This document shows positions 2,486-46,874 of a stretch of 64,000 nt of DNA, piece after piece (positions within the stretch are counted from its first letter, which is position 1; every line of letters starts with the position of its first letter). The notes under the pieces were generated by a model. That model made no database searches, had not been told where the DNA came from, and worked only from the letters and a program-made list of their open reading frames with translations. The position numbers were made by a program, and so were the translations under genes. This stretch comes from Planctomycetia bacterium (lineage in GTDB: Bacteria > Planctomycetota > Planctomycetia > Pirellulales > Thermoguttaceae), in assembly GCA_030527185.1 (NCBI GenBank), contig JAUNBF010000003.1:1-64000 (forward strand), given 5' to 3'.

Positions 2486-3938
2486 TCTGCTCGTCCTTTC
2501 TTAAAATTTCGTAAACTCCATAAAAACAATCCTATTCCCAAAAGCCAGCAGGTCGCCGGTTCAGGAACGGCTGCCGTGTCAACGGAAACATTCAACGTTC
2601 CGGCATTCCAGACGGCATTCAGATAATAATCCTGCGTGGAATCGGCCAGAAGCGTATCCACAAACGAAAAGTTGGAAGCGGTCAAAACCGTCGTTTCCAC
2701 CCCCGGTCCCAGGGAAAGAATCTCCTGAAACCAATCCTCCGCCAGGATTACCCCCGCTCCTTCCTCGAAAATCAGCGTTCCCGTCCCTGCCATGTCGATT
2801 TTTTCCTCCAGATACAGTCTTTCACCAATCGTCAGACTTTCCCCTTCCAGAATCGTCAGCGTATCCGCCTCTTTCCCCCAATTCAACGTCCCAACAACAG
2901 ACGTATTGTCGATATTCCACGAACCTTTCTCAAAAGAAGCCGCATCGACAGAAAACGTTGTTTCTCCGGTGGTCGTCAAGCTCTTTTCCGACTTCCAGTT
3001 CCAGCCGCGGAGAGAAACCTCTCCCTCCAACGTCAGATCGGTATCCGAATGTGAATTATAAAAATACCCACCTTCCACCGTCAATGTTTTCCCGGAAATA
3101 TCCCCCCGCAGAAATATCTCTCCATTTCCATTGGCTGCGTACGGCAATAAGAGGGAATCGGCTCCGACTTCCAGATTCATCTCGTAAACGCATGCGTTGG
3201 TAGAAGAATCGTTCGTCATCTGGAGAATCCCACCGTTCAAAAGAATTTTGCCGACGTTGCCGTTGCGCTGAAGGATTTTATGGCCGTTGGTGGAGGATTC
3301 ATCCCAAAATCGAAGCATGGCATCTTTCTGAACAACGATTCCTTCCTCTATCGTGACATCCGCCCGACCATTGTTGTTGATACAGAAAACGCCTACCGCC
3401 ACCTCCAATTTCTTCAAATCGACCACACAACCATCCCGAAATTGAGGTTCCGTAACCTGCGTAATCAACTGCCCCAGCGTGGGCACGGCTCCCCAACTTT
3501 GGTTATACGCATACGTCGTGAGTGTGTAGTCTCCTTTTACGGAGCCTCGCAGCCAGATTTTGCTGTTGTCCACCGCTGTGATAGAGGCATTTCCCGCCAA
3601 AACCACATTTCCCGCAAAAGCTCCCCGTGCAGTTCCCGGAGTGCCAGTATTACACCAAAGAACGCCGTACGGAATGTCGGTTCGTTGAGAAAGGGGAGAA
3701 CCTGCCGTTCCGGTTCCCGAAATCGTAAGCGTTTGTCCGCGTCCCAATTCACGGTCAGCTTGATTCAAACAGAGTGTCTGCCCCGACAAAAGGGTGAGGG
3801 GAAAATCAGACACAGTCAAATCCGTGCCATAAAAAATCTCACCCGTACCACTTCGAGAAAGAAGCAGAAAAACCAGAAGAATACTTACCCGACCGACTTT
3901 GAAAATGTTAAAGTCGGGGGGGGGGGTAAAATAAACAT
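2482..3938 (-). CDS. PEP-CTERM secreted protein, frame broken at a poly-C tract in the signal peptide
   Basis: The C-terminus is a PEP-CTERM sorting signal: VPEPATCWLLGIGLFLWSL followed by RNFKKGR. The body (about 440 aa) is beta-rich and repetitive, like autotransporter passenger repeats. The uninterrupted frame has no ATG near a ribosome site. An ATG at 3938 preceded by AAGGAG at 7 nt opens MFILPPPP, then meets 11 C on the coding strand (3916-3926) and leaves the frame. With 12 or 9 C it would run on through a hydrophobic stretch (VSILLVFLLLS) into the body, which is a good signal peptide. I therefore annotate from 3938 as one gene that is out of frame as given. It overlaps the sialidase gene by ATGA. 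A phase-OFF allele or a homopolymer error are both possible. Confidence 0.75.
3916..3926. repeat. 11-bp G:C homopolymer in a signal-peptide coding region
   Basis: Eleven G on the plus strand (C on the coding strand) lie between the RBS-linked ATG at 3938 and the hydrophobic core of the PEP-CTERM signal peptide. One more base, or two fewer, restores the reading frame. A tract of this length is in the range known to slip in Campylobacter, Neisseria and Helicobacter phase-variable genes. Confidence 0.85.
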
Positions 3939-4019
3939 TTTCATTCTCCTTTTCCTGGGGAATCGAGAAAACTCCTTGACGGCCTGAAACGGATTTTTAT
4001 CCGCTTTCTGATAATTACC

Positions 4020-11502: not shown

Positions 11503-12363
11503 TCAGACACGATTCCGTTTTTTTCGATACACCCACAAGCCTCCCACTCCCAAAATCAAAAGTAGCCAGGAAGCCGGTTCGGGAACGGAAGACTGGGGAG
11601 AGGAAGAAAGTACGGAAAGGTTCAAACATGTCAGGTCGCCAGAGAGATTATTTCTCGCATTTATCAGAAAGTCAATATAGGATAAACCCTCTGCGGAAAA
11701 CAGGATATTCTCCAAATTTATCTTGTAAATATTGGTACCACCCGAAGTATCTAGGAGCATGCTCAAATCCGAATCCGTCACTTGAGAAAAAAGTTCCACC
11801 TTCTCGTTATCCTCATACATGGCGGTGATGGAAAAACGGATTCCGTCCCTCTCTTTGTTAGGGGTGTTGGTGACAATGCTGGAAAGGACATCGCCCACGA
11901 TTTGTAAATCTCCCGTCATTTCCTCTGCTGGCGTCCATCGAAGAAGCATTCCTGTAGAGGTACTCAATGGATGGGTGAAAATATAGTCCGAGGTTCTATC
12001 AGCGTTGACAGCATACGGTGCCAGTTTACCCAAAGCTCCACCAGATGACGTGTCGGATACGGTATTGACCGAGCGAAACGAACCTGCCAACCCATTTCCC
12101 GCTCCTGAAGCATAATAGCCAAACCCCTCGTTATTGGTGGCTTTTGATGTGGTCACAGTACCTCCGTCATCGCGTAAACTCCACGTTCCCAAAATGGTTC
12201 CGTTTTCATCCAGAGAGGAAAAACTCCCCGAAACACCTGCGGCAGTCGGTTCCACGTAATCTGCCGTAAACGAGGTTGTGAAGCTGACCGGGGCGGCACC
12301 CACCCACGCATTTCCACTGCCGAACAACATTGTCAAAAAGACAATCAATACTCTGCGTTTCAT
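11503..12363 (-). CDS. PEP-CTERM secreted protein
   Basis: 286 aa with an intact signal peptide (MKRRVLIVFLTMLFGSGNAW, then VGAAP) and a C-terminal PEP-CTERM anchor (SVPEPASWLLLILGVGGLW, then basic KKRNR). The body is a beta-rich extracellular domain with no catalytic motif I recognise. The PEP-CTERM signal would be processed by an exosortase, which is not in this window. There is no homopolymer tract in this gene, in contrast with the PEP-CTERM genes at 3938 and 46795. It is divergent from a XylR-type regulator across a 237-bp spacer with operator-like repeats. Confidence 0.85.
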   Translation of the reverse strand: MKRRVLIVFLTMLFGSGNAWVGAAPVSFTTSFTADYVEPTAAGVSGSFSSLDENGTILGTWSLRDDGGTVTTSKATNNEGFGYYASGAGNGLAGSFRSVNTVSDTSSGGALGKLAPYAVNADRTSDYIFTHPLSTSTGMLLRWTPAEEMTGDLQIVGDVLSSIVTNTPNKERDGIRFSITAMYEDNEKVELFSQVTDSDLSMLLDTSGGTNIYKINLENILFSAEGLSYIDFLINARNNLSGDLTCLNLSVLSSSPQSSVPEPASWLLLILGVGGLWVYRKKRNRV

Positions 12364-44417: not shown

Positions 44418-45485
44418 TTATTGTCCCGACCAATTCACGGCCTGGTGGTCGGCCTTATCTCCCAAACAGTGAAATACTTGCGGGTCGATGCTGTAGGGGA
44501 TGCGTTGGACGGAACCGTCGCACATGCCCATGCCGAGCGATCCGGCGTGGGCACTGCCGAAATGGGAAAGGCAGGCTCCGTACCCCGAACGATCCTGAAG
44601 TGGGATGTAGGGTGCGCTGGACTTGGTAAACGTGGTGCCGGAAAACGTGCCGCAATGGGTGTAACGACAGACTTCCGCGTCCCCTTCACTGCAAAAATCG
44701 GGATAGTCGGTGGCCCAGGTGGTTGTTTCCGGTTCGTAGTATTCCGGCTGGACTCCACGTTCGCCGTAGAGAAACGTATTGGAGGTTCCATCACGAATTT
44801 CTCCAATACGTACCTGCGAAAGATTGTACGTCGTGCCAGAGTAATCCGCCGCTCCAGTAAAACCGACTTCTTGGGCTTTGGGATAGTCGTACCACCCCAT
44901 GGTTCCCGTACGGATGCTCGCTACCTCTTTGGCTGAGGGACCATGGTTACTCCAGTACGCCTGTCCCTTCTTAAAAGAACCAAAGCAACCGGCATAGTCT
45001 CCTTTGAAACCCGTATTTTTGCGAGAGCCATTGTAAAGTCCACCCTCACCGACTTTGATCAGTTTCGGTGCCCGCCGAGAGGGGCAACTGAACACCGAAA
45101 CGGGCGTTTGATGTAACTGGACGGAATTCGTCGTCTGGATGGACGAGGGACTTTCAGGCGGCTGGCCATCGGCTGTTATTTGAAACAGTGCGTTTTGTTC
45201 CAACGCCGGCAAAAGCGTATAACACCAACTCCCCGGCTGGCCGAATCCCAACCCGCCTTCCGGGTCGCCTGTCCACTGATACCCCCACCCACCCGACGGC
45301 AATGCCCGCGTGGAACTTTCCACGTTCAGCGCCGCCAGATTCAACTGCCGCAGGTGGTTGTTGCACTGCATTTGCCGGGCGGCCTCCCGTGCCTGTTGCA
45401 CTGCTGGAAGGAGCAGCCCCACCAACATCCCGATAATGGCAATCACCACCAATAACTCCACCAACGTAAACCCGCACCGTTTCAT
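44418..45485 (-). CDS. DUF1559 domain-containing pseudopilin-like protein
   Basis: 355 aa with the N-terminal CGFTLVELLVVIAIIGML and GLLLPAVQQAREAARQMQC. The internal ALPSGGWGYQWTGDPEGGLG and QPGSWCYTLLPALEQNALFQ closely parallel the DUF1559 at 276, and the C-terminal motif is SAHAGSLGMGMCDGSV. It starts 3 bp after the stop of a PEP-CTERM gene, so the two are surely cotranscribed; it is the second case of a tract-bearing PEP-CTERM gene followed by this DUF1559 subtype. Function unknown. Confidence 0.9.
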   Translation of the reverse strand: MKRCGFTLVELLVVIAIIGMLVGLLLPAVQQAREAARQMQCNNHLRQLNLAALNVESSTRALPSGGWGYQWTGDPEGGLGFGQPGSWCYTLLPALEQNALFQITADGQPPESPSSIQTTNSVQLHQTPVSVFSCPSRRAPKLIKVGEGGLYNGSRKNTGFKGDYAGCFGSFKKGQAYWSNHGPSAKEVASIRTGTMGWYDYPKAQEVGFTGAADYSGTTYNLSQVRIGEIRDGTSNTFLYGERGVQPEYYEPETTTWATDYPDFCSEGDAEVCRYTHCGTFSGTTFTKSSAPYIPLQDRSGYGACLSHFGSAHAGSLGMGMCDGSVQRIPYSIDPQVFHCLGDKADHQAVNWSGQ

Positions 45486-45488
45486 GAC

Positions 45489-46795
45489 TTACCCCTTTTT
45501 CTGAAATTTCCTCCAAAGGCATAATAACATCCCGCCCAAAACGCACATTCCCCACGTCCCCGGCTCTGGCACGGCCGCGGAATCGACCGAAAGTACCAAT
45601 GAATTGCCCACTTGCGACAAATTCCAGTAATACCCAACCTCCGGCGACAAAAGATTTTCCAAATTCTCCGGCAACGCAAACCCGCCATCGGAGTTCCAGA
45701 CCGCATAACTCGCCCCGCCTTGAAGCAGAAAATCGTCCGCCAGCACCAAATCCAGCAAAACCCCTTCCGCAAGCGTACTTTTTCCCGTCACCTCCAACAC
45801 ATCCCAACCATCGTTCGTCATCTCGATCCGCACCGAACCGTCATTCAGAGCATAATCCCCCTGAATCGTCGTCGTCCCGAGGGCAATTTCCCCACTTTTT
45901 GTCCAGTCAATCCCCGGCGAAAGTATCCCCCCATCTTGCGTCAAACCGTTCTGAATCGTCCTCGCCGAAAGCACTCCACCTGTAAAATTGAAATTACTGG
46001 CCGACTTGGAGAGTATTCCGCTTACATTCAAAACTCCATCCGATAAAGAATAGGATGCGTTGTTCCCTACACGCAATTCAAGCTCAAGTGCCGAAGTTCC
46101 GATGGTTACCGTTCCGCCGGACTGCTTGAATTGGCTTGTTCGCCCCAAATACAAACCATTACCGTATACGGAGGCATTGGAAGCTACATTGACATTGAAC
46201 TCTCCCCCCGTCATTTCACAGACCGCCCCGTCGCTAAATTCCCCAAAAACACAGACTCCGCCACCATTAAAGTTGACAACGGCATTGTCCTGAATGTAAA
46301 GTGTCCCTGCACTGTTTCGCCCTGGAACAAAATTCCCACGGATATTGAACACCGCATTGTCTTTCAACGTGAGTGTGCTTCCTGCCTGTTCACCTGCGGT
46401 TCCCGAACCTGTAGTAGCCAAATATAAACCACCCGCCGAGACAACCGCATTCCCGGAAAAAATAGCATGGGCTGCCGTCGTATGTCCAATCATTAGGACG
46501 TTCGTAGCATTGATAACGGTACCATCGCCAGTCACTTCAATGATGGTTCCATTCTCATTGTAGAAATTGGAAATCGTCTGACTGCCATCGAAAGAAAGAA
46601 TCCCCTTCCAACCAGCAGTACGCTGCGACAATGCCACTCCATCCGCCCAGTTGACACCACTTTGCAAATCGCCACCTGTGGTAGAAATCCATTGTGTCTC
46701 ATTTTCCTGAGACGTAGCGGCCTGTTGAAGACCCTCTATAATACCCCCCCCCCGCAGATTAACACCGCTACCAACAAAAATTGCCGATTTTTCAT
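45489..46795 (-). CDS. PEP-CTERM surface protein, frame broken at a poly-G tract in the signal peptide
   Basis: The body (about 420 aa) is a Gly/Asn-rich autotransporter-like repeat region and the C-terminus is PEP-CTERM (AVPEPGTWGMCVLGGMLLCL, then WRKFQKKG). An ATG at 46795 with GGAGG five bases upstream opens a good signal peptide (MKNRQFLLVAVLIC), then enters 10 G (46744-46753) and meets TAG six bases after the tract. With 11 or 8 G the frame continues into the body (GIIEGLQQAATSQ). The only uninterrupted frame starts at 46847 with no RBS or signal peptide. I annotate one gene that is out of frame as given: a phase-OFF allele or a miscounted homopolymer. Confidence 0.78.
46744..46753. repeat. 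10-bp G:C homopolymer in a signal-peptide coding region
   Basis: Ten C on the plus strand (G on the coding strand) encode glycines at the end of the hydrophobic core of a PEP-CTERM signal peptide. One additional base restores the frame, the same offset as at 3916-3926. Confidence 0.85.
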
Positions 46796-46845
46796 AAAAA
46801 CCTCCACATGTTCCAAAAATTTCTCCACCACTACCATTTTGATTC

Positions 46846-46874
46846 ATTTTACCTTAAAAAAATTCCCCTGGCAA
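46846..46874 (-). promoter_or_regulatory. Predicted sigma-70 promoter for the 46795 PEP-CTERM gene
   Basis: On the minus strand TTGCCA (46869-46874) and TAAAAT (46846-46851) are separated by 17 bp; the start point is near 46838. The leader contains GGAGG before the ATG at 46795. Confidence 0.6.

Follow-up and report, generated by a model that had tools for sequence, protein, structure and literature searches.

A poly-G tract in the leader of a planctomycete PEP-CTERM gene probably belongs to a set of about 100 homopolymer contingency loci

The window (the whole 64,000-nucleotide stretch of contig JAUNBF010000003.1 that was analysed) carries on its minus strand a gene starting at ATG 46795, in which a run of ten G in the leader separates the start from a frame ending in a PEP-CTERM sorting signal. 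A second gene of the same construction lies near the other end of the window. The features of the two loci are as follows.

46846–46874, minus strand: putative promoter TTGCCA-17-TAAAAT, a consensus match only
46801–46805, minus strand: Shine-Dalgarno sequence GGAGG, 5 nt upstream of ATG 46795
46754–46795, minus strand: ATG and first 14 codons, MKNRQFLLVAVLIC, signal-peptide hydrophobic core
46744–46753, minus strand: G10 leader tract of the PEP-CTERM gene, 1 G short of the open frame
46736–46764, minus strand: copy of a ~29-bp element, TGTTAATCTGC-G10-TATTATAG, in glycine (sense) orientation
45489–46743, minus strand: body frame, open only with 11 G
45498–45572, minus strand: PEP-CTERM sorting signal (TIGR02595, 19.0 bits, cut-off 16)
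44418–45485, minus strand: downstream DUF1559 gene with a prepilin-type start and no tract
2497–3944, minus strand: PEP-CTERM gene with a C11 leader tract, 1 base short (2497 is the low end of the sorting-signal match)
3906–3934, plus strand: second element copy, TGTTAAAGTC-G11-TAAAATAA, antisense to its PEP-CTERM gene (C11, prolines)

The tract at 46744–46753 reads as C10 on the plus strand and as G10 on the minus strand, 42 nt past the A of ATG 46795. Translated in silico with ten G, the gene runs into a stop after 19 codons (MKNRQFLLVAVLICGGGVL, then the stop); eleven G give a 435-codon frame that extends to the PEP-CTERM end, and with 9 or 12 G translation stops at about 31-32 codons (32 with 12 G). 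The C-terminus follows the PEP-CTERM pattern of a PEP motif, a transmembrane stretch and a basic end, and finishes with AVPEPGTWGMCVLGGMLLCLWRKFQKKG, while the body contains no Pfam or NCBIfam domain at the default cut-off. The DUF1559 gene downstream is the probable partner of this gene in one unit. Upstream, the body frame stays open as far as ATG 46847 as well, but the intact reading frame from this codon was discounted, since the ATG overlaps the -10 hexamer and has neither a Shine-Dalgarno sequence nor a signal peptide, and is thus not a credible start. The anatomy given in the original prediction, namely G10, GGAGG at 5 nt, TTGCCA-17-TAAAAT and restoration of the frame by 11 G, proved exact on re-reading.

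Two G/C runs of at least 9 are present in the window in total, both inside PEP-CTERM leaders. The second, G11 at 3916–3926, is read as C11 from ATG 3944 or 3938, and one added base gives 487 or 485 codons, respectively. As foreseen, its gene has the same offset and needs +1 like the gene at 46795, and the PEP-CTERM genes at 12363 and 42989, described as intact and tract-free, are indeed intact, and the longest G/C run within 150 nt of their start does not exceed 4.

The genome that includes the window comprises 4,285,130 bases (4.29 Mb) in 174 contigs and is 91% complete. It was found to contain 149 distinct G/C runs of at least 9 and 129 matches to the PEP-CTERM profile TIGR02595, and the surroundings of all these matches and of 146 of the 149 long runs, about 1.03 Mb, were taken for analysis. 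In this set G/C runs of lengths 5, 6, 7 and 8 number 1257, 358, 93 and 11, and runs of lengths 9, 10, 11, 12 and 13 number 20, 38, 64, 19 and 5, a bimodal distribution whose second peak, at 11, is enriched relative to the genome because the set holds nearly every long run. With the short-run counts scaled about fourfold to the genome, length 8 is still rarer than length 11. A/T runs in the same set fall off steadily, with no second peak. A run lies at the 5'-end of 77 of the 129 PEP-CTERM genes, and the 76 distinct runs concerned compare with 1.3 expected by area. In-frame G/C runs of 10-12 were also observed deep in PEP-CTERM bodies, at G000:C88:37507, C112:22558 and C174:104150.

A strict screen, which required an ATG, a Shine-Dalgarno sequence, one long frame and a hydrophobic or prepilin leader, retained 90 leader tracts: 61 in PEP-CTERM genes, 18 in DUF1559 genes and 11 in other genes, several truncated at contig ends. 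The starts of these genes have a Shine-Dalgarno match of at least 5 in 58 of 90 cases, against 3.5% at random positions. In the strict cases the tract is always in the leader, at codons 4-21, mostly before the hydrophobic core and just after it in 14. A start codon downstream of the tract was considered and rejected, an in-frame start with a Shine-Dalgarno sequence being present within 25 codons in just 16 of the 90. Ten more tracts were located between TTGACA-like and TANAAT-like boxes, that is, in promoter spacers, most of them with a PEP-CTERM or DUF1559 start and its Shine-Dalgarno sequence about 55-80 nt further on; spacers with a tract are 14-15 long, against the usual 16-18. A switchable family such as the original prediction drew from two genes is supported and extends far beyond them, with further tract-bearing PEP-CTERM genes in clear excess. 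Its picture of tracts in PEP-CTERM leaders was incomplete, given the 18 strict DUF1559 cases and the tracts in promoter spacers.

The pairing with a downstream DUF1559 gene, likewise proposed from the window, extends to the genome at large: a DUF1559 start comes after 61 of 74 PEP-CTERM genes with a tract and after 17 of 51 without one (p = 3e-8). Lone DUF1559 genes bear a tract of their own. At G000:C26:13179-15728 three DUF1559 genes stand in tandem, each with a leader tract, and show two different reading states. The genome has one exosortase (PF09721, 163 bits), at C110.

Alignment of the flanks disclosed a common motif of ~29 bp on the G strand, TGTTAA-n3-5-G(9-13)-TAAAATAG, which occurs in both orientations. 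The element is degenerate, with about 0.5-1 bit per position. In the fetched DNA the string TGTTAAWWYRC occurs 21 times, where ~1 is expected in all, and 20 of these occurrences flank a tract that is intact or interrupted; TGTTAAAG[TC]C adjoins a tract in 12 of 12 occurrences. The spacing from TGTTAA to TAAAAT is 15 in 39 of 54 element copies, and tract length partly offsets flank length. The two tracts of the window had been thought to have arisen independently, one encoding prolines and the other glycines; as the same motif is present whichever way the tract is read, they are instead one element in opposite orientations. In glycine orientation the TAAAATAG end yields stops in two frames, and the nearest OFF frame meets a stop within 5 codons for 62 of the 90 leader tracts, against 20% in controls. 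A clean empty site for the element was not seen; tract-free paralogs exist, and their leaders differ throughout. Antisense copies at G000:C17:23860, C154:6463 and C119:7773 lie outside the leader, 87-213 nt upstream of the start.

The occurrence of one motif in both orientations, together with its constant neighbour and preferred spacing, could also be expected of a DNA site that acts like a promoter or binds a protein and has poly-G as its spacer, for which the effect on the reading frame would be secondary. Promoter copies of the motif are indeed similar, as in TTGACATCTGC-G10-TAGAATAGG compared with TGTTAATCTGC-G10-TAATCTAG. This explanation nevertheless appears unlikely, for a promoter facing backwards within a leader would serve no obvious purpose, the sister species G007 does not preserve the spacing, and the readable copies of other genera are nearly all coding DUF1559 leaders.

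The reading states of the 90 leader tracts are unequally represented: 62 need +1, 16 need +2 or -1, and 12 are in frame. This split departs from thirds with p = 7e-12, and the in-frame deficit has p = 3e-5, both values assuming independent tracts, although related copies do not fulfil that assumption. A length preference alone was rejected as the cause of the bias, as permutation of lengths over frame classes (20,000 runs) gave a mean of 33.7 and a maximum of 52 and never reached 62. The one-short register goes with the spacing of 15 (34 of 39 copies, against 5 of 15 at other spacings), and its frequency is more than free switching alone would give.

A deficit of exactly one base in so many tracts would be produced if sequencing or assembly under-counted long G/C runs by one, in which case the genes would truly be in frame and the OFF state an artefact; the growth of the bias with longer in-frame length and the shortened promoter spacers are in line with this. 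Runs of 10-12 that are in frame in the middle of genes argue against it. In a small control of eight gene-body runs of 9-12, seven are in frame, among them runs of 10, 11 and 12; the one that is not belongs to a copy of the element. G9 in hisF (G000:C4:4221) and G10 in a HicA-like toxin gene (G000:C12:41877), both named from reading of the sequences, are in frame, and the bias is absent from the separately assembled genomes G004, G005 and G026. Miscalling, judged improbable but still a live alternative, would even if true leave the tracts and the element in place.

When 196 genomes of the order were scanned for TGTTAAN5G7, this genome gave 39 matches, other members of its family gave a few, and the remaining genomes hardly any. 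The element recurs in DUF1559 leaders in other genera of the family: in G035, G026, G187, G177 and G211 nearly all readable matches have this position, e.g. MKNCNVKLGGGGEN...GFTLVELL, and the copies are in mixed reading states with mostly G10-G14; the G177 copy has a length of just 8 and is antisense. In the sister species, tracts needing +1, tracts needing +2 or -1 and tracts in frame number 8, 5 and 3 in G001, 9, 3 and 1 in G007, 1, 3 and 3 in G004, and 2, 2 and 4 in G005. Between-species ortholog pairs have the same state in 9 of 17 cases and different states in 8, close to the expectation from state frequencies alone, and their tract lengths differ in most. Relatives with a fixed, shorter in-frame tract were not seen, the tracts being mostly long and in mixed frames. 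A search of the genome collection with the PEP-CTERM body of the 46795 gene returned no relatives. The neighbouring GH32 gene matched Thermoguttaceae and other planctomycete MAGs, many of them from ruminant gut (best 65%); in the matched stretches of these relatives the longest run is 8, which occurs once. Many G10 runs in G058, G046, G011 and G036 lie within ~100 nt of contig ends and look like assembly or sequencing artefacts, not switches, so that family-wide G10 counts were not taken as evidence.

These comparisons bear on programmed recoding, in which slippage of RNA polymerase or of the ribosome would release a fixed full-length fraction from the one-short register. Such recoding could explain why this register is dominant in all frame classes here, at a count never reached on permutation of lengths, as well as in G007 and half of G001, and why some paralogs hold it despite a changed tract length or flank. 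However, neither G004 and G005 nor other genera hold to this register, and it follows the element spacing of 15 and is not preserved at differing spacing. The agreement of just 9 of 17 ortholog pairs and the non-uniform bias of the sister species fit switching and speak against a conserved programmed frameshift, and we regard recoding as very unlikely.

Switching thus offers the best account, and the G10 tract is probably one of ~100 homopolymer contingency loci that form a slippage-driven ON/OFF repertoire. Replication slippage, which we infer together with its rate and reversibility, would lengthen or shorten the leader tract by one G/C and thereby bring the protein in or out of frame. Leader regions are removed by signal peptidase or prepilin peptidase. 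The tract would fall in the cleaved part, either the PEP-CTERM signal peptide or the DUF1559 leader before the prepilin cleavage motif; being in the cut-off leader, it would leave the mature protein the same whenever the gene is ON, also after a triplet change. In glycine orientation the TAAAATAG end would provide early stops in the OFF frames, and the ~10 promoter-spacer tracts, between -35 and -10, would tune transcription instead. Since the switch would usually head a PEP-CTERM and DUF1559 pair or a lone DUF1559 gene, a population could show varied combinations of exported proteins, presumably at the cell surface. The repeat is slippable and beyond chance (G/C runs of 9-13, bimodal, in excess in leaders), its number alters the frame of one gene in silico in all 90 strict cases, and number and state vary between related genomes (8 of 17 pairs, with mixed states in other genera). 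By their anatomy the leader tracts would be contingency loci.

A MutS_V domain (PF00488) was not detected in the 91% complete genome; it was found in 11 of 14 control genomes. The absence may be due to the incomplete assembly, or the lineage of the window may be without MutS-type mismatch repair. Loss of mismatch repair destabilises homopolymers. A bolder version of the switching hypothesis, possible but doubtful, takes the ~29-bp element as a switch cassette with a poly-G core that spread in either orientation into ~100 cleavable leaders of exported proteins, where it would be held one base short; the repertoire would then be silent by default, and single insertions would release one protein each.

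Homopolymer phase variation has become familiar mainly through a handful of host-adapted pathogens, in which it reaches ~80 loci. If the present interpretation is true, the ~100 leader switches of this uncultured planctomycete would rank with the largest repertoires of the kind. The genome probably belongs to the family Thermoguttaceae, and its named relatives are largely from ruminant gut. Such a repertoire would suggest selection on PEP-CTERM and DUF1559 proteins that rewards variety (phage, host immunity, competition), and the common element and the one-short bias make the spread and the silencing of the switches testable. No report of phase variation in planctomycetes or in PEP-CTERM proteins, homopolymer switching included, was found in the literature searched, and a large switchable repertoire of this kind is, to our knowledge, new for the phylum.

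In Neisseria, opa genes carry CTCTT/CTTCT repeats near the start of surface-protein genes. As judged by anatomy, the repertoire described here is similar in being an exported family in which each gene has its own leader repeat and a frame-based ON/OFF state; it differs in its G/C homopolymers, in the common flanking element in both orientations, and in the protein families and phylum concerned. There are about 4-12 opa genes (PMC5953494), against about 80-100 loci here, and phase-variable genes average 39 per meningococcal and 54 per gonococcal genome (PMC5953494). Poly-G loci of Campylobacter number 5-81 per strain (PMC6321876). They too are G tracts of at least 8 in reading frames, with mixed frames between strains. 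Their mode is G9-10, whereas it is 11 here, and the loci in this genome are more numerous, fall mainly into two families of exported proteins and without exception occupy the leader. The C-terminal PEP-CTERM signal and the genomic exosortase are shared with the PEP-CTERM/exosortase system. Neisseria porA and opc have poly-G/C switches in their promoter spacers. The ~10 spacer cases found here likewise have a homopolymer between -35 and -10, but unlike porA and opc they are similar to the coding element, and the gene families in which they occur have leader tracts too. Overall, this is a real and strong case of a familiar kind of switch in a large repertoire, made unusual by its bidirectional flanking element and its one-short bias.
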